Shown one piece after another: positions 2,457-59,203 of a DNA stretch of 64,000 bases. The notes under the pieces were generated by a model. The model ran no database searches. It saw nothing but the letters and a program-made list of their open reading frames with translations, and was not told where the DNA came from. The position numbers and the translations under genes were made by a program. Source of the DNA: Rhododendron vialii. Its lineage: Eukaryota; Streptophyta; Magnoliopsida; Ericales; Ericaceae. The stretch is taken from the NCBI RefSeq assembly GCF_030253575.1, contig NC_080559.1, positions 32,669,501-32,733,500 on the forward strand. Reading direction: 5' to 3'. How positions within the stretch are numbered: position 1 is the first letter of the stretch; the number at the start of each line of letters is the position of its first letter.

Positions 2457-5400
2457 TTAACCGATAACTGCGTGCTCGCTCATCTCTTTGTTCACCATTA
2501 ACTTGTCATCGGCAGAGTTGTCATCAGACGTCTGAGTCTGTGGAGTCTTTGGTGGCTCTTCTTCCTCCCTGCTATCTTCAATCACATCTTTAGCAGTTAT
2601 AAAGCTCGGCTGGTTGGTCGATGATAGGAGCCTAGCCCACATCCTATCTGTTATCACCACATTGTTCTGTCCCTCATTTATCCGCTGCACACAAACATCA
2701 AGATTCAAGATTAGGAATTAAAGATGCTCCAAAATAACTACTATATTTCATCTGTTCATCGAATTGGAATGGAAATGTGATACCACCTCATATCTGCTTT
2801 TAAGTTTACCGGAGCCAAGGCCCAATGGAAATCATACCGGGTAAAAAGAAGGAAACAGTAAACATCAAGAATATTACTATGTTTCATGTGGAAGACATTT
2901 TAAGAATTGGAATTTTTTGGTATTGATTTTTGAACTTGTCAAAAGTTCTGTCAATATCAGGAGAAATGCAAATGACAAATCATGAAAATTAAGCAGAAAC
3001 AAGCAGTTTTTTTAATGGCAAGGACTGACTCACATAGAAGGGTATATAACAATGTCTTCCATTGACAGGCCCCACTGTAAAGCCCGTGTACCCTGCCATC
3101 GCTCCATGAACAGCACTTTGTGCAAGAAGTGTGCAGTACACGTTGTCGGATGCATTGCTTGGAATAGCTCGGATCATGTATGTGGGATCTGGCAGTCATG
3201 AAAATTGCAGCATTCGGTAAGACAGTCATTTGAAAGTTTTATGCTACCAGGGAACTTAAAGTACCAACCTATATATTTGAGGTTGATGGCCATCTTCTTT
3301 TGTCTTGAGAAATGATCCTGAAAATTAAAACCAAGAATTTAACTACCAATATCTCACTTTGTTTGCATGCAGCCAAAAAAAGAAGTCACATGTAGCAAGT
3401 TCATGGATAGACCATGATCTGAATATTCCATGAACCAAATGAAGAAAAGGGAGTTTAGAAAACCACATTTCAATAGCTTTCACCCGTGAATAGCTGTTAT
3501 TTTGGCTGCCTAACTCTCACAATAGCCATTTTTTAATCGTGCATGGACAATCTTAGTGCTTCCTAAGTAGAAGGACTCTATTGTATGATTTCAATCAAAC
3601 CATTTTATGACCGAGTCAAAAGTTTCACCTTGTCAAAGGATGAACAGGAATCAAACTAAAACCTATGGTTGATCTAAACTTTAAGCTTTGTTGAATAGGT
3701 CAGCCAGCCTAGCTAGGTAAGTGGCTTTGTTGGAAAATTCTTGGGCTTGAATTTTCCAACAAAATGTGCATGGATCAACATTTGGAGAATACAATTCCAC
3801 AAACTAGTTTGGAACAGGACACAAACCTTGATACTCTGAGATATCCAAAGCCCAACGTCTTGGAGAAGCTTGTTTCCTGAAGCATCTTGTTGATGACTAG
3901 AACGCAAGACCTCAGAAAGAAGCTCCTGTCCTGCACCTTCGGCTATGACAATAACCATGTGTCCGTTTTCCTTTAGTCTTTTCTCTATGTACTCAAAAAG
4001 TCCGCCTGCTCCTTCGAGATAAAAGGGCGACTCTGGAATCAAGCAACAGTCAACATCTCGGCTGGCTAGAGTAGCATACATTGCAATATAGCCTGTCACG
4101 CCAAAGTCAAATGTAAATAGTAGAACCAAGATAATTATTATGAATTGACAGAACAGGTCAGCTAAGATTTTCCTCTTCAATCCAAAGACCAAGAACAGAA
4201 GAAAATATTGGAAGAAATACATGATATCATAGATAACACCACCATATCATTCAGGCATGAAGCAATTTTAGATTCCCACCACGTAGCGTTCAAAGCCAAT
4301 TATCGATTCAAGGGTTTTAAGAATAAGGCATGAAATTAAGCTACTTGAAGAAAAGGACTATACTGTAAACTTACCACTGTAGCGTCCCATTAACTTCACA
4401 AGGCCAATTCCATTTTCAATACTATCAGATTCAACGTGTGCTGCATTTATGGCACGTTGAGCCTCCTCAACAGCAGTATCAAAGCCAAAGGACTTGTCAA
4501 TTACCTGTAGTACGGAAACAAAAGTTAAGCAAACAATTTGGGAACAGATTTGATATTCTGTATTAAGCAGCGGTTCAGCATAATCCATCATGTTCATGGC
4601 TGCATAAGAAGTACCGGAATGTCATTGTCAATCGTTTTAGGGATTCCAGCAACCGCAACTTTGAGACCGCGCCTTCTGATTTCCTGCATAACAGCGAATA
4701 AAATTTACGACAAGTAGCTCTACAGTTAACAACTACAACCATGAGACTTAAGACTCCCAAGAATGCAAAATTCAAGGACTAATTCATGTAAAACGCAATA
4801 CATGAAAAGCGACTACAAATATACCTCATAGATCACTGATGCCCCTCTTTGGGTACCGTCTCCTCCAATAATGTAAACCTGATATATAACGAATCATACA
4901 TTCATACAAGCAACGGGGTAGTCACTTAACTAATAGAAAAGTGCATTAACATAAACGTTGAACAATGAATAAGACACTTGAACCTGGAAAGAGCATGTCA
5001 ATATCTTCTTACTTGATTTATACCCCGGTCCTGAATGCTGTCGACTATTTTTCCAGTATTGTGGCCACCTCGTGATGTCCCAAGCACCGTTCCACCACGT
5101 TTGTGGATGTCGTTTACAGTTTTGGGTGTTAAAGCGATTGTGTTTCGAGCATAGAAACCCCTGTATCCTCCCTGCGCATCCAACAACCTATTTCATTGGC
5201 GCTGCTCAAAACTATGCATTAGAAAGTAGAAACTGAGTGGTGCATCTCTTTGTATGATACAGAACGTACATGAACCTATCCTCAGTTTGAAATCCATAAC
5301 ATCCGACAATACACTAGAACACTACCATACCTTAGTTTGAGAAATCATTGTTCTCCAAACCAAGGAAAAGCATCAGAGGTTTTTCCTGTTGGAGTACAGC

Positions 5401-15947: not shown

Positions 15948-18945
15948 CTAAATTGTGCTCTTTTCATTGTAATAATACAAGAAGGACAAGTTCCCATCAA
16001 ATTTTGAGGTTAACTTATGGGGAATGAATCCACAGTAATCTCTTTCATGTGTAGCCATGCAGATCTCAACAATCCTTTTGGACATGTGATCTTCTCTGTA
16101 AAATGGTTGTTTCAACACTTCATCAACAGGCATCCACTGAAAACAGCAGAACACAAAACATGTCACCAACCACAAAAAAAAAAAAGAAAAGAAAGAAAGA
16201 CTAACGATTAACATATGTATGAATCCCTCTGTAAACCTGAAGTACCTTGGCAGCTTGAATTTCCTTTTCGTCGATCGTGATTTCATGGGACAGTGGTTTA
16301 AGCATGCACACAAACAGCAGATCCGACTTCTCAAAAGCCACTAGATGGGCATGTCTGCAACCCAGAAACATGAAGTGTCACTTATGTGAAGCAAAAAAAG
16401 AGACTTAAACCCCCCAAAGGGTATCTGTATTCAATACTCCGTGTTCATTGTAAATTTTTAAGAGCTTCAAGGTTGTGTTGGCGTTTGGATTGGAAATGAA
16501 TGGATACGGTGTCACTTGTTCAAGAGGTATAACCTCTCATCCAGTTTTCTGTTTCACTTTTTCGTTTACAGATTTGATTTGAATGCTTTGATTGATGGAT
16601 TTCAATTAACAATGTGACTATGCTAACATGAAATCCTTTCATTAAAGGATCCTAGATGGATTTTATTTCTTTTTTCCCACTGCTCTCCTACTTCGAGGCC
16701 GAAGTTCTTTAGGAAGACAATACCTGAAAGCAACCATTTCCTGGAAAATTGTGTCAACCTGCAAGAAGGGATGGAGCATAGAAAATTAATGATAGAACGA
16801 GGGTACTATGACAACTTTTACGGTGGTGATGGTGTTGAAACTATTGGTTGGAGTTGAATTCATGCTTACACCAGTTTCTTCTTTCACTTCTCTTACGGCT
16901 CCAGAAAATATGTCTTCAGACTAAGATGAAAGAAAAGGATCAGGAATCAGTCACTCCTTCAGAGAAACAAAATGCGGGAATCAACATTTACATAGGCCTC
17001 TGGGAGTTCTTACCCAAATTTGAAACAATTCTTGTCGATAAGAGGAGCATCTATAATAGAGAGAAGACAAATGTGTGTAGAAAACTAGAAAGACAGAACC
17101 AGCACCTTGTTAATATAACCAGTAGGCAACTTCCATACCCCCGAGCAACTGCAAGGGCATTTTTCTTTTACTACAAGAACCTAAACAGCATAAACAAGTT
17201 CAGTAAGGCAAAGTTAGATAAGATTGTGAAGAGATCTGGGAAAACTAGAATACCTCTCTTTTGTCATTCATCACAAACCCTGCAATGCCTATTTGATGGG
17301 AAGGGCCAGCAGGGAGCATCACTGGCTCGTCAGGAATCCAATACGTTAGCATAACATATCCTGATTCAGCATGATGGTAATTGAAACCCTCCTATGAATC
17401 AATTAGTAGAGGAGTTAAACAAGATGGTCCCATTTGTTTGGTACAGCTTTGTTTTCTGTTTTTCGTCTCGTCCTTGAGTTCTAAGAAACACAATGAACTT
17501 AGTTCTGAGTAGGTTTCAGAAAGATGTTCTTGAAATCTTGAAACTATTTCTGTTACAAAATGAAATAGATAATGAAAAAGCTGGTTGTTTTAATTTTGAA
17601 AGCAGTTTCTAAAATGCATTATGCAAAACTGTTCTAAGAAAAACCAAATTCTATATTGAATAAGTTCAACAAGAGAGTAGAAAAAAAAATGTATGAGTGG
17701 TACGATAAGTATATAATAGTATCATATCTTGAGACATTGATATTGCAGTGTCAAACTGTTACCTGAATCGCTATCGGAACAAGTTCAGCTTGCTCTTGTA
17801 GAATCTTCAGCCATATCCCCCTTTTCCCCTGCACTGAGTTTGAAATAAGTAACAGAAGGAATTTGACATTTTTCTGTATCTCAAACTTTAATTCACCGTT
17901 ATACTGAAGTAGGTTCCACTTGCTCTCAGGTGAAAGTTAATTAGGTAGTTGTTTTTACGTCATCACAATTCGCAAGATCGGTGGACTATTAGTCTATAAC
18001 AGGGGTCTTTGATAACAGTTCCCATCAGAGGCAATTATCAGGATCAAAATTATTTGAACACTCGACAGTTAACGTCATCTGCTCAAATTCTTTTAGAGTT
18101 ACCATCTTAAATCTCAATTCGACCTCTTAAGCATTTTAGATAAACTCATTAATGATGAAGTCATTATGGATTTTAACAGGCTGTGTACATTTTAACTTTA
18201 ACTACCATGAAGTGGGATTACAGGAGCAATTGTAAACAACTCAACAATTACTGCCTTAAATTTTAGATGAGTGCAGGATTTTTGCTGCAATGCAAGTGGG
18301 GGATAAGGTGGAAACAAGACATGCTTGTGAGTATGTGGAGATTATATCTAACCTTCAACTTCCAGTTCAACAGAGAAGCCGGCAGTGTGGACGCAAAAGC
18401 ATTTGAGCTCAAGGGTAAGCTATATGGATCAACAATGATCCCCTCATATTCATCATCCCACGCACAAAGGAGCTCAACTGCTAAGCCCGGTGATGCTATA
18501 TTCGGAGACACAACGTGAACTCCTCCTTTCTTGAGCAAATAACTGCCACCAAGAAATGGCTTGGAGGAAATTGGCTTCCACGAAAGACCTGGAAAACAAG
18601 ACACAGAAATCCCAAAGTTAATTATTTCTTGCCGAATGGTAAAATTAGCTATCTCATGAGTCATGATGCCTGAAAAATGATGATTTACTCCTTGGAAATG
18701 CACGAGAACCAAGAAAGGACTTGGAGGAGATTGGCTTCCACGAAAGACCTGGAAAATGAAACGACAAATCCCAAAAGTGATTTCTCTCTGGCCAAACAAT
18801 GTAAAATTAGCTATTTTTCATGACTCAGGAAAAGTGGTGACTTACTCCTTGGCAATGCATGAGAACCATAAATTTTGGCCCATGTAGATGTAGGTGCTTC
18901 TGGAGACCATGTGCAACAGATACCAGTCCATTGTAAGGCCTCCAT
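15948..18945 (-). CDS. NUDT8: Nudix hydrolase 8-like protein, 9 exons
   Basis: Hydrolyses a nucleoside diphosphate linked to another moiety; the physiological substrate of this plant group is not evident from sequence. Exons, in transcript order: 18945-18846, 18748-18689, 18588-18353, 17828-17763, 17391-17254, 17180-17106, 16920-16870, 16758-16724, 16354-16246 and a final 16136-15948 (counting the short duplicated exon, ten pieces). They total 352 residues in frame. The Nudix box is complete: G221, E227, then REVKEETGV at 235-243, the metal-binding helix. Upstream is the plant NUDX8/2/10 pre-domain (DDEYEGIIVDP, GKRGIWLK, GYVMLTYWIP); downstream FEKSDLLFVCMLKPLS and WMPVDE are family blocks, and the tail CGFIPHKLTSKFD fits NUDX8. 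The start ATG at 18945 lies about 60 nt below a TATATATA box. Exon 2 (60 nt) arose by a 160-bp tandem duplication. The Ser/Lys-rich N-terminus could be an organelle presequence, which is inference. Confidence 0.87.
18551..18871. repeat. 160-bp tandem duplication spanning exon-intron boundaries of the Nudix gene
   Basis: Unit 18551-18710 and unit 18711-18871 align throughout (for example CTTGGAGGAAATTGGCTTCC and CTTGGAGGAGATTGGCTTCC; TTACTCCTTGG(A/C)AATGCA(C/T)GAG in both). Each unit contains the end of one exon, a whole intron and the start of the next exon. Confidence 0.9.
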
Positions 18946-19006
18946 ATCTGCTGCTAAGATCGTTGTTTTGGAGAAGAACTACAACAAAATAAAGCTTCCA
19001 TTGCTC

Positions 19007-19014
19007 TATATATA
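19007..19014 (-). promoter_or_regulatory. TATA box of the Nudix gene
   Basis: TATATATA within GCTGTATATATAGAGC on the minus strand, about 62 nt upstream of the start codon at 18945. It supports that ATG over a candidate about 1 kb further upstream. Confidence 0.6.
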
Positions 19015-27881: not shown

Positions 27882-30800
27882 TTTTTTTTTTTTATCAGCA
27901 AACGAAACATTTTATATTGCTCAAAAGGGTACATTGAGAAAGGGCATCCTAGCATAAAGAGCTTGGATACTCCGGAAAAGAAAGACATCCAACAGATAGT
28001 TGGATAAACACCTTAGACTACATTACAATTTTAATTTCCGGATTCCGTCTAGAAAAACCTTAAAATCCTCCACAGAATAGACTTTGATGTTCAATTTCGC
28101 CTTCATCCACATAGCTACCCTAGTTTTGACCAAATCTCCCACCTCCCAAGGTTGTTTAGAAGAGTTGTTGAAGACGAAGTCGTTTCGAACAAGCCAGATA
28201 GACCATAACGTGGCGTAGAAGCAAGACTCCCAAATGTGCTTCTCAAGGTTGTGGAACCCATTATCAAACCACCAACTAGCCAAAATCGGAACAGAGGGTG
28301 GGCATACCCACTTGACCTTCCACCAATCCAAAATTAGAGACCACACGGTCCAAGAAAAATGGCAATGGATGAACAGATGATGATGGGTTTCCAAATGTAG
28401 TAGACAAAGAGGACACAAAGCTGAGTGGATCTCACCGATAATGTTTCTACTCAAGGGAAGTGACCTGGTTGCCACCTTCTCTTTGATAGCCATCCATGCA
28501 AAGATTTCCACTTTTGGAGAGCAACAGTTTTTCCATAGAGAACCCAGCAAAGCATTATTAGGATAAGAGAGTTGTTCCCATTTCTCATATGCTAATTTAA
28601 CGCTGAAAATACCATCTGCCGACCATCTCCATTGTAAAAAGTCAGGCCTAGTTGGGTTCAGAGTCACCCCTTGAATCCTCTGAATCAAATTATCCAACTC
28701 TTGCCATTCCCGCCCAAAAGCCCTTCTTCGGAAAAACAACTCCCAGGAACCCCCCTCAGCCTCGCTCCTCATATCACTAATCAAAGCCATCTTTTGATCT
28801 GATAGAATGAAAACTCTCGGATAGACTTCTTTCAACGGGGTCTCTCCCAACCAAGAGTGTTCCCAAAACAAAGTCGCAGTACCCGAATTAACTTTGATAC
28901 AAAAGCTCTCTCTGACGGAATATCCCAGATGAGAAGATGAATCCTCCAATGAGCAAATATCCGTCCAAACTTTTGACATAGAGCCTGAACCAGGGGAGAA
29001 AGGGAGCCAGCAATTTGCATCCAGACCATACTTTCCTCTGATAACTCTCGCCCAGAGAGAGTCTTTGTTGTTGCCGAATCTCCACCACCATTTGGCCAAG
29101 AGTGCTAGGTTTTGTTGAAGCAACCTCTTCACCCCCAAACCCCCGTTGTCTTTGTTCCTTGCTATCTCATCCCATTTAACCAAGTGCATCTTCTTTTTGT
29201 CAGCTGTATCACCCCAAAAAAAATTTCTTTGTAGTTTCTCCAGTTTCCTAGCTACTGCAATAGGCATTTTAAACAACGACATAAAGTAAATAGGCACATT
29301 TCCGGTGTTGGAGATAATAAGAGTCAGCTTCCCCCTCGACGAGATACATCGGCTTCTCCAAACACTCAAGAGCTTTTCAGTCCGTTCGATAACAGGATCC
29401 CAAGTCTTAATCCTTCCAGGGTTTGCACCTAACGGCAATCCGAGGTACTTAATAGGGAGAAATTCCACTTTGCAACCCATTATTTCAGCCAACAATGCCA
29501 CAACTTCATGAGGGACATTCACTCCACTAAGAGAATTCTTAGAGAAATTGATTTTGAGGCCTGACATCAGTTGAAAGCACCTTAGGATTCTTTTGATATT
29601 AGCCATCTCCTCCGGATCGTTGTTGCAGAAGAGAATTGTGTCATCCGCAAACTGAGTCCCTTCTGCATATGAAATTCCTTAGAAGCTGAGCCGTTGATCA
29701 AAATGGACATAGACCCAGAAGAGACACACTCCAAAATCCATCCACGCCACCTATCCCCAAATCCAAACCTTGCTAGCATATCAATCAAAAAGTTCCAATT
29801 GACACAGTCGTACGCCCTTTGGAAGTCAAGTTTTAGGATAAGACCTCCACGAGCACTGTGTTTCCAGCTATGGATAGCCTCATTGGCTATAAGAACACCA
29901 TCCAAAATTTGCTTCCCTCCCACAAATGCAGCTTGAGCTTCCCCAATAATAGATGACTTATGCACTTTGATTTTGTTTGCCAACACTTTAGAGAGTACCT
30001 TGTAGACCCATCCCACCATACTAATAGGCCTATAGTCATAGAAAGACACAGGGCAAGCTACCTTGGGAATCAAGGCGACAAAGGTGGAATTGATACCTTT
30101 TGTAAGCTTCCCGTTGGCGTGGAACTCCGAAAAGAATTGAACGATCGTTCATAAAGTTCCAACCTTTCTTAACAAAAGAAAAATTGAAACCGTCGGGGCC
30201 AGGAGCTCTAAGGTTGCTACACCCTTGCACAGCTGCTAGAATTTCCTTCTCCTCAAAAAGGTTCTCAAGATGTAAAGCTATCTCCGAGCTTAGTTTCCTA
30301 GGGAACAAACCTTCCAGCAATGGTCTAGTCTTCCTTTCCTCAGAAAAGTTGTTCCGGAAAAAATTTGAGGCAGCTTCCCTTATTGTTCTGGCTCGACTAC
30401 CATCACTCCAGCAACGTTAACAGATCCCACCAAATTCCTTTTGAATCTGTTGTTTGCCGTAATTTGAAAAAACCTGGTGTTTTTATCACCCAACCGAAGC
30501 AACTTAACTCTAGATTTTTGTTTCCAGAGAGACTCCGAGAGCTTTGAGAGTCTCCAAAATTCTGACTTTGCTTGGCATCTCTGCGCTTTTTCCTCTTCAT
30601 TCAGTGGCCCATTTTCAGCTAGTATATCAAAATGATGAAGTTTGACTTCGGAGTCTTGAAGAGCAATATTGATATCCCCAAAAACCTCTTTATTCCACAC
30701 CCTCAAGCTGTCTTTAATGGCTCTCAGCTTCTGTACAATAATAAAACCAGCCCACCCATTCACTTTAAACTCCTCCCAAGTCTGTTTTGCAAGCTTCATA

Positions 30801-30945
30801 CAGTTTGGATCATCCAGCCATATGTCTAGAAATCTGAAAGGTTTAGGCCCCCAGTCCCTATTATCATCATGAAGCATAATAGGGCAGTGGTCTGAAATTG
30901 GCCTTGGAAGCTTGGGGCACATAATTACGAGGTTTTTCATCATAT
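27882..30945 (-). mobile_element. 5'-truncated L1-type non-LTR retrotransposon
   Basis: Minus-strand element. A poly-A tail (T run at 27882-27893) follows the plant-L1 3' word TTTGCTGAT. It contains the last part of the endonuclease domain (ISDHCPIML near 30890), the reverse transcriptase and a C-terminal zf-RVT region. The 5' part, with ORF1 and most of the endonuclease, is missing. I looked for a copy of the sequence left of the tail (AATTAAAATCAAGC) beyond the 5' end and found none. Confidence 0.85.
28023..30943 (-). pseudogene. LINE ORF2 remnant: reverse transcriptase and zf-RVT
   Basis: Three open stretches in two frames: 30943-30380 (end of endonuclease and linker, with ISDHCPIML), 30073-29582 (palm/fingers, with YRPISMVGWVYKVLSK) and 29606-28023 (thumb to C-terminus). 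The catalytic FADD block is present at 29651-29640, but the block normally before it (the RQGDPLSP region) is deleted and the frame shifts there; another break lies near 30100-30380. The C-terminal part has the Trp/Cys/His pattern of zf-RVT (CPLCLLHLETHHHLFIHC). Not functional as it stands. Confidence 0.85.
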
Positions 30946-30949
30946 GTGA

Positions 30950-31200
30950 TGTCTAGGTTTGAGTCTCATGTTTACCAGCTGTAACTTCCCCTACGCGGTT
31001 TAGCAATGGGTTACTTCAATTCGGTTTGGCTCTGATGTGGTCATGGGTTCAAGGCTCCCGTTTGAATTCCATGATCCGCCTATTGCCTTCTTCGGCCTCG
31101 GGTGACGTGGTTGCGCACCTCTTAGTTTCAAGTCTCCTTCGAGGGTTCCATCGTGGGTTTAGAGTCCCTATGATTCCTATGCGTGGTTGCGCCCGCTAAA
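30950..31200 (+). mobile_element. SINE relic adjoining the LINE
   Basis: The 3' part resembles the SINE at 36864-37146: both have GTGGTTGC..., a ...TTCG(A)GG(G/A)TCC block, then GTGGGT(T/C)(T/A)(A/G)GAGTC(C/T)CTATG and a (G)CGCCC block in the same order. A box-B-like GGTTTGAGTCTC is at about 30956. The head may have been lost where the LINE meets it. Confidence 0.45.
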
Positions 31201-31470
31201 GAATTACTCATGGCCGCAAAGACTTACGCATGGCCGCAAGGAATTACTCATGGCAGCACAGAATTACTCATGGCTGCAAAGAATTACTCATGGCCGTACA
31301 TAATTATCCATGGCCGCACAGAATTACTCATGGCCGCACAAAACTACCCATGGCCGCACAAAATTACTCGGCCGCGCAGAATTACTTATGACCGCACAGA
31401 ACTATCCATGACCACACAAAATTACCCTGGCCGCATATAACTACCCATGGCCACACAAAATTACTTCCTC
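31201..31470. repeat. 20-bp minisatellite, about 13.5 copies
   Basis: Consensus unit GAATTACTCATGGCCGCACA. Units 1-8 are exactly 20 bp; unit 9 (18 bp) and unit 12 (19 bp) carry small deletions, and later units diverge more. An 85-codon open frame runs through it only because three 20-bp units equal 20 codons; I do not call it a gene. Confidence 0.9.
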
Positions 31471-34626: not shown

Positions 34627-37600
34627 ATGAAATCAATTAGTAGCTCCGATCTCATTGATGCAAAGCTTGAGGAGCACCAGCTGTGTGGATCAAAACAATG
34701 CCCTGGTTGCGGCCACCGATTTCGTCAAAAATCGGTAGGGATATTCATCTCATACTAATATTCTTCAGATTTTGTGAACAAATAAAAGAGACAACAATAA
34801 ATAACAGTATAATTATTGCTTTGGGTTATATATATTTTTTCTTCTGTTTTTTTATTTTATTTTATTTTTTATTGTAGGACTGGGCGGGTCTACCAGCAGG
34901 AGTGAAATTTCATCCAACAGACCAAGAATTGATTCAACACCTTCAAGCAAAAGTAGAGTCTCAAGACTACTACCCTAAACTATCCCACCCTTTGATTGAT
35001 GAATTCATCCCCACCATTGATGGAGAAGATGGCATTTGTTACACCCACCCTGAAAAACTTCCAGGTAAGAAATATGTACTCTCTCTCTCCCTCTCTCTCT
35101 CTCTCCCGCTTACTATGCGCGAGTTTCCTCTAACGAAAAATTGCTTTTCGTGTAGAAGAAAACTAATTCAGAAATGATATGACAATAACGTTTTTTAAAA
35201 ATGTCGTCGTAGTAAAGCCTTTAAATTATATTTGAATGATCACATTAAGTATCAAAGTTTGGCGATAAAATTAACTTACACGTTTATGGTTTTCTAGGGC
35301 TTTTTGCCATCTTTTTTTTTGTTTGCTATGACTATTGAAGCATTTTCAATTCTTCCCCAATTTGTTACACCTAACTAAGTTTACTTGAGTACTTGGGCTT
35401 TGGTTAAACTAGCTTGCACTCTTTGCCTTCAACAGGAGTCACAAGGGATGGGTTGAGTAGGCATTTCTTCCACAGGCCTTTAAAGGCCTATACAACTGGA
35501 ACAAGAAAGAGAAGGAAAATCCAAACCGAATACGATTCCCAAGGCAGTGGTGGAGGAGGAGGAGAAACACGGTGGCACAAGACTGGAAAAACAAGGCCGG
35601 TAATGGCGAACGGAAAACAAAAAGGGTGCAAGAAAATTCTAGTTTTATACACAAATTTTGGAAAAAATCGAAGACCTGAAAAAACGAGTTGGGTCATGCA
35701 CCAATATCATTTAGGTCAAAACGAGGAGGAGAGGGAAGGGGAGCTCGTGGTGTCGAAGATATTTTATCAGACTCAGCCGCGGCAGTGCAATTGGGCGGAG
35801 AGGGGTGGAGCCACCTGCTCCACCCCTGGAGTACTGATTAACCAGAGACATGAAGCAGCTGCTGGTACAACAGTACTATCAAGTAGCAGGGAAATGGATA
35901 CTCAACAATATTTTGAAGCTGACCCTTTTGGCTTTGATGAGGTATATATGTAAATGATTATCAATAATATTTTTGCCGTTTCAAAAAAAAAATTATAAAT
36001 TTGTATCCACGCTTGTTCATACTCAATGTTTCCTAAAGATAAGTTTGATAAAGATTATAGAGCACATAATATTGGTATTTATACCGATACAACAATATTT
36101 CCGTCCAGATTAGTGTATAGTATATCATACGTACTACGATTATTATGTATTGTGTACATCTTTAAGCGAACCGCCTCCTACGACAATAATTGGATTAGTT
36201 GTTGCTACACCGAATGTCAGATATTTGTTTGTGAATTTGTTCTTGGTTTGTGTTTTTTTTTATCAGCAAATTTATTTTTTTTGTTATAAACTCGATAAAT
36301 GGTACATTGAAGAAGCAATGAGGGGCAAAACACCTGCTTCATGATATTGATGCATGAAGTGGGTGTTTGTTCTGGGTTTGTGTCATCGCAAGTCTAACAA
36401 ATGTGCTTACTTGTATTAATTGTGTTAGGAGTTTCACATTTTTAACTTGTTTTTGGTGGGTAAACCATGTAATTATATACGTACATATTGGAAAATAGCT
36501 AGGTTCATTTGATCCTAAAATAGATGCTGAAAAAAAATAGTATTGTAGAGGAAGCAATACCAAAATTTAAGGGGTTCCTTGTATTGTTTTTTTTTTTTTT
36601 TTGAAATGGAAAAAATATTATTGTTGCTTGTATTATCGTACAAAGCGTGAAAAATACCCTACTATCCACCAAAAGAGAAGGAAATAAAACCCAATGCGAT
36701 ACACAAAGTCTAAAACTGAAAGAGAGAACTAACCATACAAAAGAAAGATAAAGAGATAAAACCAAATCAGGCTTGCAGATGGATGGCAATCTGTTTAAAT
36801 TTAGATAAGGTTTATTTATTTGATAAGGTTCTATGCACATGATATGCAATATGCGACATTTATACCATCTGGGGTGATAGCCCAGTTGGTCAAGGCTTAT
36901 TTCCTTTGGGTTTGGGTGAGGTAGGAGGTACCAAGTTTGAGTTATGCTAGTGGCGCCTCTCTCGAATTTGGTCTTTTGATCTCCTCTGTCTGGTTTTGGC
37001 CCGCTAGTCCTTGGTGAGGCGGTGGTTGCTATGGCTCTTTGGTCCCTTTCGGGATCCGCTGTGGGTCTGGAGTCTCTATGGTCACGCCCAGAGAAGGGTT
37101 GCTATGCCCGGTCGCCTCCTCCTCCACCCTTTTTAGCTTAGCAAAAAATATGCGACATTTATCATGGTCTTGGTGATTTGGGCGGATTTGTTATGATTTC
37201 GTTATTTTAGCCAATTTGGTGTAATTCTTTGGAAAAGAAAAATGGTTCTGCCATTCACCGTTCACTAGGCAATAGATAACGAAAACAAAATACTTAAATG
37301 TTTGTAGTACATCTTTAATTCATCGATATCGATCCATACACTTTTTGCACGCTAAGCACTTAATTTTCACATGGCTGTGATTAGAATTTCCCCCCGAAAA
37401 GTCGTTTTCAGTTTATTCTTCATCAAATCTGTAAATATAATGAAAAACCTTAATTTGTTTGCATGTCATTTTCCTTCAATTATTTTTCACGTGTTTAATT
37501 TTTATTGCAGTTTGGAGGGGGTGAGGGCACAGGCACGTGCCACGAGCGTGACATTATGACCCATGATGATCAATATCAACATTATGATGAGAAGAATATG

Positions 37601-46935: not shown

Positions 46936-48174
46936 ATGAAGAACAGCTGGCTCCTAGCTTTTCTCCTCCTCCAAACAGTCTCAACAGAAGCAGATTTGGG
47001 TGTTGGTGGTGGTGTGGGAGTCGGCATTGGGGGCGGCAGTGGAGGAGGAGGAGGAGTGTGGATCGGTGGAGGAATAAACAGCCCAACAACCCCATCTGGG
47101 TCCACAGTTTCAAGCACCCACAATGCCTACTCTGCCCTCCAAGCATGGAAATCTGCAATCACGGAGGACCCTTTGGGGATATTGACCAATTGGGTCGGTG
47201 AAAATGTGTGTAGCTACAAAGGGGTTTTCTGTGCAGAAACTCAAGATGCAATGGGTAACCCAATTGGACAAGTGATTGCAGGCATAGATCTCAACCGTGG
47301 AAACCTCAAGGGCACTTTAGTCAACCAGCTCTCTCTCCTCACAGATCTCTCTCTCCTTCACCTCAACAGCAACAGGTTCACAGGCACAGTCCCTTACTCT
47401 TTCAAAGATCTTTCCTCACTCACTGAGTTGGACCTGAGTAATAACCACTTTTCTGGTCCTTTCCCAACCCCAACTCTCCTCATTCCAAACCTCCTTTACT
47501 TAGACCTCAGGTTCAATGACTTCTCAGGCCAAATCCCACAAGATCTTTTCAACAGGAAACTTGATGCAATTTTCCTAAACAACAACCTCTTTGATGGGGA
47601 AATCCCTTCAAACTTGGGGAATTCTCCAGCTTCTGTCATCAACCTGGCTAACAACAGGTTTTCTGGTAATATCCCATTTAGTTTTGGGTACATTGGTCCA
47701 AGATTGAAGGAGATTCTTTTTCTCAACAACCAGTTAACAGGCTGTGTTCCTCAGGGGGTTGGGTTGTGGCAAGACTTACAAGTCTTGGACTTGAGCCACA
47801 ACTCACTGATGGGTCATTTGCCTGACACCATTTCCTGTTTGGAAGAAATCCAAGTCCTGAATTTCGGGCACAACCAGCTATCAGGGGTGTTGCCAGATTT
47901 GGTTTGTTCTTTGAAGAGCCTTATGAATTTGACTGTTGCTTACAATTTCTTTTCTGGGTTTGATCAAGAATGTGCCAAATTGTTCTTTAGAAATGTGGGT
48001 TTTGATTTCTCTTTGAACTGTATTCCTGGTAGGGATATGCAGAGGCCTCAGCCGGAGTGTTCAGGGATCCCTGGAGGTGGGTTGAGTTGCCTTAGAATTC
48101 CTGCACCCAATCCTCCTCTTGCTTGTGGGGTAACTTTGGTTGACACTCAAGAGAATAGTACTTCTAGCCCATGA
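46936..48174 (+). CDS. Secreted leucine-rich-repeat protein, LRX-like without extensin tail
   Basis: Intronless, 412 residues. Residues 1-20 are a signal peptide (hydrophobic LLAFLLLQTV core), then a glycine-rich segment (about 22-50, GGGSGGGGG). An LRRNT-type cap with Cys pair (VCSYKGVFC) precedes about ten plant-extracellular LRRs from about 105 to 345 (LxxLxLxxNxFxGxIP, for example LTELDLSNNHFSGPFP). A Cys-containing C-terminal segment follows (FDFSLNCIPGRD, CSGIPGGGLSCLR). There is no membrane helix, kinase or Ser-Pro4 extensin repeat. It fits the group of LRX relatives such as Arabidopsis At4g06744, expected in the wall or apoplast, where LRX proteins bind RALF peptides; binding by this shorter form is not shown. 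Long minus-strand open frames opposite the Gly-rich part are shadows. A GA-rich 3' UTR begins right after the stop. Confidence 0.9.
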   Translation: MKNSWLLAFLLLQTVSTEADLGVGGGVGVGIGGGSGGGGGVWIGGGINSPTTPSGSTVSSTHNAYSALQAWKSAITEDPLGILTNWVGENVCSYKGVFCAETQDAMGNPIGQVIAGIDLNRGNLKGTLVNQLSLLTDLSLLHLNSNRFTGTVPYSFKDLSSLTELDLSNNHFSGPFPTPTLLIPNLLYLDLRFNDFSGQIPQDLFNRKLDAIFLNNNLFDGEIPSNLGNSPASVINLANNRFSGNIPFSFGYIGPRLKEILFLNNQLTGCVPQGVGLWQDLQVLDLSHNSLMGHLPDTISCLEEIQVLNFGHNQLSGVLPDLVCSLKSLMNLTVAYNFFSGFDQECAKLFFRNVGFDFSLNCIPGRDMQRPQPECSGIPGGGLSCLRIPAPNPPLACGVTLVDTQENSTSSP

Positions 48175-51344: not shown

Positions 51345-51701
51345 GCGCTGGGGAGGGAAATCGTACCGACTGCCGCGCCGGGCCGTCTCCGGCCATCGGA
51401 CTGCCGATCCGAACCGTCCAATTTTTTTTATAAAAAAAACGAGAGGGCGTGCGCGAGAATCAACGGCATCCAAGGTATGTAGGGTACTTGATCTGAGCAC
51501 CCATTTTTTGTGTATATATGAAAAAAAATCGAGGGGGACCTACGCGAGAATCAACGACATCTGAGGTGTGTAGGGTGCTTGATCCGAGCACTCATTTTTC
51601 GTGTATATATGATTTTACAGAACTTATTTGGGTTCGGATCGACCGTCTAGTGGCCAGAGATGACCCGGCGCGGCCGTCGGTACGATTTTCCTCCCCAGTG
51701 T
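51345..51701. mobile_element. GC-rich hairpin element, family B, copy 3
   Basis: Ends CTGGGGAGGGAAATCGTACCG and inverse. It shares CCGATCC(G/A)A(A/G)CC and GGGTGCTTGATC words with copies 1 and 2. About 65 bp (AATCGAGGGGGACC..., and ...GCACTCATTTTTCGTGTATA) appears twice in tandem inside. Confidence 0.7.
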
Positions 51702-55307: not shown

Positions 55308-55475
55308 TTGCATACCTACTTGCTCTCCTCTTAAATTCTTCCTTTTGAGAAGCTCTCTTGCTCTTCTCTCTGTCTAGCTCTCTAGGAGGATTTGCATACG
55401 TACTTGCTCTGCTCTTAAATTCTTCCTTTTGAGAAGCTCTCTTGCTCTTCTCTCTGTCTAGCTCTCTAGGAGGAT
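55308..55475. repeat. 84-bp tandem duplication
   Basis: Units 55308-55391 and 55392-55475 differ at about two positions (ACCTACTTGCTCTCC against ACGTACTTGCTCTGC). Confidence 0.95.
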
Positions 55476-55884
55476 TCTAGAAGGAAAATACGAGCTTTAG
55501 GATCAAAGATAATCCTAGTGGGATGTGCTTTGGCCTTTGTCATCGATTCACATGCAGCTTGGATCTAGAGGTTTTTTTTTTTCGGGTAGATTTTGTTTGT
55601 CATAATGCATTTTTTTGGGTTAATTTCCATTAATTTTGGCCCTCAACTATTCTAATTTGTTCGCTGTTCGACTTTAATTGTACCTATTTTGTCTCTAAAT
55701 TATTCAACTTAATGTTATTGAATCTAATTGACTCATGTATCCAAATTAGGGACAAAATACTTCGTAGTATAATGGGCACGCAATTTTAACTCACCAAAAT
55801 AAGTGTTTTTATGATAGTGACCAGAATGGAGATAATTTTGACCAAAATAAGTGTTTTTTAAGATAGTGAGTTAGGGCGAGTTCT

Positions 55885-58744: not shown

Positions 58745-58819
58745 GTAAGATTCTGTACACTTCTATGATATTTTACTTGGCAATGGGTACCTAGTTATTG
58801 TCATGTTGCTGCTATTGGG

Positions 58820-59203
58820 GTTTTTGGTGTGACATCTATCTTGTGTTAGCCGCGAATGCCATGAAGATCCAACTTCTAAGGTCTTGCTGAATTTTTTGGT
58901 CATACTCAAATAGTTCATGTTGTGTTTGGTGGTGATATCAGACAGATATATTTTGATCAGATGCTTAAAGAATGGGTATGTTTAAGGCAGTTACATGATG
59001 CCGGTTTATAGCGGTTTTTGATGTGACATCTATCTTGTGTTAGCTGTGAACGCCATGAAGATCCAACTTCTATGGTCTTGTTGAATTTTTGGTCATACTC
59101 AAATTAGTTCATGTTGTGTTCGGCAGTGATATCAGATAGATATATTTTGATCAGATGCTTAATGAATGGGTATGTTTAAGGCAGTTACATGATGCCGGTT
59201 TAT
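58820..59203. repeat. 194-bp tandem duplication
   Basis: Copy 1 starts GTTTTTGGTGTGACATCTAT at 58820, copy 2 GTTTTTGATGTGACATCTAT at 59014. Both end in CATGATGCCGGTTTAT. About 94% alike by eye. Confidence 0.95.

Follow-up and report, generated by a model that had tools for sequence, protein, structure and literature searches.

The Nudix hydrolase gene described here raises the question of whether a short tandem duplication crossing an exon–intron–exon boundary gave the gene an additional exon without breaking its reading frame, and whether that exon enters the mRNA. The gene lies within a 64,000-nucleotide stretch of the Rhododendron vialii genome (the window hereafter; NC_080559.1, positions 32,669,501 to 32,733,500 of the forward strand), to which all coordinates below refer. 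Its whole predicted coding region occupies 15948..18945 on the minus strand and is read from 18945 to 15948 as 10 exons encoding 352 amino acids, with nine introns that all follow the GT..AG rule (9/9). The product matches PF18290 (E 6.7e-29; 100.2 bits against a curated cut-off of 26.5) and PF00293 (E 2e-17; 63.9 bits against a curated cut-off of 21.1), and its nearest solved structure is Nudix hydrolase 7 (4zb3, E 1.2e-62), which we take to be the Arabidopsis protein of that name. The Nudix box, whose general pattern is GX5EX7REUXEEXGU, is intact in the translation (GYINKSEDIFSGAVREVKEETGV; compared with the pattern by eye). Given domain scores above cut-off, the match to 4zb3 and the intact box, this completely modelled gene appears to be free of visible pseudogene character; we believe it to be of the NUDT8 type.

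Exon 1 (18846..18945, minus strand; 100 nt) carries the sole in-frame ATG of exons 1–3, at 18945, a finding in favour of exon 1 as the beginning of the predicted coding region. Upstream, a candidate TATA box (TATATATA; 19007..19014, minus strand) ends 62 nt before this ATG. An upstream ATG at 19001, positioned 5 nt past the candidate TATA box and in a frame other than that of 18945, opens a 15-codon upstream reading frame that also begins MEAL; we considered this as a further duplication of the start region and rejected it, the best local alignment spanning 12 nt with a score that 242 of 1,000 shuffles equalled or beat.

The duplication consists of two units that adjoin without a gap and together make up the tract 18551–18867 (157 + 160 bp). 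Copy A (18711..18867, minus strand; 157 bp) runs from 22 nt before the end of exon 1, through intron 1, to 38 nt into exon 2, and copy B (18551..18710, minus strand; 160 bp) likewise from 22 nt before the end of exon 2, through intron 2, to 38 nt into exon 3. Two direct repeats tile the region, one of 89 nt with 79% identity at a spacing of 160 and one of 51 nt with 82% identity at a spacing of 157, and the local alignment of copy A with copy B scores 156, compared with a maximum of 29 among 1,000 letter-shuffled pairs. The tract is hence an adjacent direct repeat inside one gene that holds an entire intron flanked by exon sequence. An initial annotation had proposed a 160-bp tandem duplication in this Nudix gene, with an exon end, a complete intron (97 or 100 nt) and an exon start in each unit, and both proposals are borne out by the DNA; of the span that it assigned to the duplication (18551..18945), the lower limit stands, whereas the upper limit is the predicted start codon and falls outside the repeat, which ends at 18867.

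The repeat is bounded on both sides: the 5' flanks of the two units differ (CATCTACATGGGCCAAAATTTAT vs CAATCTCCTCCAAGTCCTTTCTT), as do the 3' flanks beyond a common GGT. A TGGT is common to the breakpoints (TTTATGGT where the tract starts, TTTCTTGGT both at the junction and where it ends), a feature that would fit duplication by slippage or mediated by microhomology. When the whole 532.6-Mb genome (13 contigs) was searched with a 461-base query, a search that may overlook diverged copies, this locus was the one match returned, and the duplicated unit hence shows no sign of being a dispersed repeat.

Between the two introns lies the predicted extra exon 2 (18689..18748, minus strand; 60 nt), which encodes residues 35–54 (LSWKPISSKSFLGSRAFPRS). 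Intron 1 (18749..18845, minus strand; 97 nt) and intron 2 (18589..18688, minus strand; 100 nt) are both GT..AG introns of phase 1 and are copies of one intron, and exon 2 itself is a chimera with an exon-3-like beginning and an exon-1-like end. It is in phase 1 at both ends and without a stop, such that the frame is kept; the initial annotation was correct in this respect, as it was in the peptide echoes that it listed (LSWKPISSK twice; GSHALPRS and GSRAFPRS).

We consider it very likely that an ancestral tandem duplication of ~160 bp across exon, intron and exon created the symmetric exon 2, which then survived in a tolerant N-terminal extension. In this account, a single intron of the ancestral gene would have separated its exon 1, with GSxAxPRS at the end, from its exon 2, which opened with LSWKPISSK. 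The duplication, with a breakpoint in either exon, would have repeated the end of the former, the whole intron and the start of the latter. As the full set of splice signals (donor, branch region, polypyrimidine tract and acceptor) would have been copied with the unit, splicing could act on both copies, and the sequence left between the introns would have turned into an additional symmetric exon (60 nt, phase 1-1). The DNA supports the origin by tandem duplication over the exon–intron–exon boundary that had been claimed at the outset; from it we infer a single-unit ancestor, the entry of exon 2 into most or some of the mRNA and its survival through a sequence-tolerant setting, in which 20 added residues would do little harm.

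The setting is that of a Ser-rich, acid-poor N-terminal extension, in which the 20 residues of exon 2 sit: residues 1–90 include 2 D+E, 10 K+R and 20 S+T, compared with 37, 26 and 26, respectively, among the other 262 residues. Exon 3 (18353..18588, minus strand; 236 nt) encodes the remainder of this extension and the beginning of PF18290. The Pfam matches start at residue 98 and the PDB match at residue 91, both downstream of the residues encoded by exon 2, and a large effect of exon 2 on the enzyme is therefore unlikely. The extension is probably an organelle-targeting region, which its composition resembles.

The acceptors and pyrimidine tracts of introns 1 and 2 are alike (14/17 pyrimidines each). 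The earlier description of intact splice sites is right for the GT and AG dinucleotides; it does not extend to the exon 2 donor, GGA/GTAAAT, which is weak and has A instead of G at +5 (compare GGA/GTAAGT at the intron 1 donor). At -3.7 kcal/mol, the predicted pairing of the intron 2 donor with U1 is the weakest of the gene's nine; the remaining eight span -5.3 to -8.0, with the intron 1 donor at -6.4 kcal/mol. As the weakest U1 partner in the gene serves exon 2, partial skipping of this exon is plausible, and we would expect its inclusion in the mRNA, possibly incomplete. The same donor favors a stronger reading, in which the duplication is real and exon 2 is mostly skipped by joining of the 18846 donor to the 18588 acceptor, leaving exon 2 as a minor cassette form; skipping would leave the frame intact and yield a 332-residue protein. 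In a simulation of neutral drift in exon 2 (with an assumed indel rate), an open frame and splice dinucleotides survive at p about 0.18, which is also compatible with mostly skipped transcripts.

The divergence of the two copies bears on this reading from the other side. Their exonic parts differ at 5/60 positions, with no gaps; inspection by eye places four of these differences in three codons with changed residues (H/R, L/F, S/P), and the fifth is silent. The intronic parts differ at 12–27 of 89–95 aligned sites, with 2–10 gap events in addition, depending on the alignment, or at 30–34 of 102–108 columns across seven alignment settings (two pairs of which gave identical counts). In Fisher tests, which treat sites as independent, the contrast between exon and intron over these seven settings has p values of 0.0003–0.0026 by differing columns and of 0.0013–0.029 with every gap counted once. 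Counted by substitutions only, it ranges with the alignment from p 0.002 to 0.43 (0.0023 in the MAFFT alignment, and likewise 0.0023 minus the splice-site ends; 0.017–0.43 in five other settings). The contrast is stable only when gaps are counted, and on this basis the exonic parts appear to have changed less than the intronic parts, which speaks against an exon 2 that is mostly skipped.

The low exonic change could stem from exons 1 and 3 alone, so that purifying selection on exon 2 itself is likely but no more than suggested. If exon 2 drifted with exons 1 and 3 static, five or fewer differences would be found at p about 0.07–0.10; the joint state observed (five or fewer differences, a gap-free open frame and AG..GT) has p 0.010–0.088 with the exon 2 copy alone drifting, in a simulation that used three intron divergences (0.297, 0.284 and 0.211, leaving out the lowest found, 12/89) and scored any indel as failure. 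Weighing these values against the weak donor, we regard a mostly skipped exon 2 as somewhat unlikely, and the duplication with an exon 2 that is expressed at least in part as the preferred account. Still less probable, in our estimation, is that exon 2 is a selected and regulated cassette, whose weakened donor would make inclusion dependent on tissue or condition and would yield two forms with a repeated N-terminal targeting segment of different length, and hence different locations of the enzyme.

The marked divergence of the copies indicates that the duplication is old and not a recent event. Neutral rates in plants are 2–7e-9 per site per year, and together with the intronic divergence they would place the duplication, very roughly, tens of millions of years ago. 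Such an age is also what would be expected if the two-unit state were ancestral to the family, unequal exchange between the two repeats having removed one unit from any single-unit relatives, and deletion between direct repeats is ordinary; the repeat would still require an earlier duplication, and we think it improbable that the history ran in this direction.

Paralogues within the same genome cannot polarise the duplication, as none of them matches the N-terminal part of the protein in a usable way. Exon 5 has six further genomic matches, just 51–57% identical over 47 residues, and the comparison covered six 9-kb regions around paralogous Nudix sequences (L010–L015; on C13, C6 (two), C4 (two) and C9). 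Searches of these six regions with residues 1–97 brought up no protein match (E up to 1), and the sole hit of the 461-nt DNA query was an 18-nt match in one of the six (E 0.86). With the whole protein as query, later parts of the protein match all six regions (6/6); L014 and L015 match by one stretch each per 9 kb at E up to 0.1 and may be fragments. One match in L010 is gapped, begins at residue 52 and runs through a stop at 29% identity, and its N-terminal part is taken as a chance extension.

Assembly errors can yield near-identical tandem copies (PMC4974935), but a single unit falsely doubled is so improbable here as to be negligible, with copies that differ at 5/60 exonic sites and about 30% of intronic columns, far above read error, and that each keep their splice dinucleotides.

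We compared the preferred account, an old duplication of a unit containing a whole intron, with systems described in three sources (PMC4974935, PMC2394523 and PMC3443670). In Arabidopsis TOUCH3, two internal duplications copied a complete intron together with the exon sequence flanking it on either side (Knowles & McLysaght 2006, cited in PMC4974935), and segmental duplications holding entire introns have also been reported (Gao & Lynch 2009, cited in PMC4974935). As in these cases, a whole intron and two-sided exon sequence are duplicated in the Nudix gene, and intron and coding sequence multiply together; the Nudix case differs in the gene concerned, in its one extra unit, in its position in an N-terminal extension and in its clearly diverged copies. 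The route is not an unusual one, since internal duplication multiplying a whole intron is already in print (PMC4974935).

Intron gain by tandem duplication has also been described in a potato RdRp gene (Ma, Lan & Niu 2016, PMC4974935). There, too, a boundary-crossing tandem duplication in a plant gene adds coding sequence and an intron, and the acceptor, putative branch site and pyrimidine tract are inherited; however, the potato unit crosses one boundary and relies on a cryptic donor that was newly activated, whereas the Nudix unit spans a complete intron, whose donor and acceptor are inherited alike. RNA-Seq reads and relatives were examined in the potato study. The duplicated H2 exon of vertebrate COE/EBF genes resembles exon 2 in sharing the frame of its neighbours and in that skipping would be frame-neutral; unlike the Nudix case, it is a whole-exon duplication with a proposed second, phase-restoring step and lies inside a functional motif, and its inclusion is seen in cDNAs, with no skipping in ESTs or by PCR (PMC2394523), whereas inclusion of the Nudix exon is predicted. 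Intron gain of the Rogers type, in which an exonic AGGT segment is duplicated (PMC3443670; PMC4974935), has in common with the Nudix case a tandem genomic duplication behind the extra intron; we rejected it as the mechanism here, as both introns are copies of one existing intron and none is born from exonic sequence.

The Nudix case thus appears to be a fresh instance of a known process, the multiplication of a pre-existing intron by internal duplication. No earlier description of it was found in the open-licence literature among the matches listed, a weak result that covers titles and the beginnings of abstracts. General understanding is unchanged, the route having been described already and the added residues lying outside the recognised enzyme domains. 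What the locus would add is a legible, old example of one duplication that adds an intron and an exon with the frame unbroken, and a setting in which inclusion and skipping can be tested where the competing splice sites share descent.

Several other features were recorded elsewhere in the window. Relic open reading frames of a LINE-type reverse transcriptase (assigned partly by eye) occupy 28023–30943 on the minus strand, with zf-RVT (PF13966) in a 527-aa frame and no Pfam match in a 187-aa frame at 30380–30943 (minus strand). A phosphofructokinase exon at 3713–4222 scores slightly below the Pfam cut-off (30.7 bits vs 30.9), a NAM (NAC) domain fragment lies at 35414–35953 (E 1.1e-13), and a 412-aa frame at 46936–48174 contains leucine-rich repeats and LRRNT_2 and resembles, by eye, a leucine-rich repeat extensin. 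Further tandem repeats are found at 51432–51612 (91 bp x 2), 55308–55476 (84 bp x 2) and 58819–59203 (194 bp x 2), and about 13 copies of a 20-bp unit form a minisatellite at 31200–31465.
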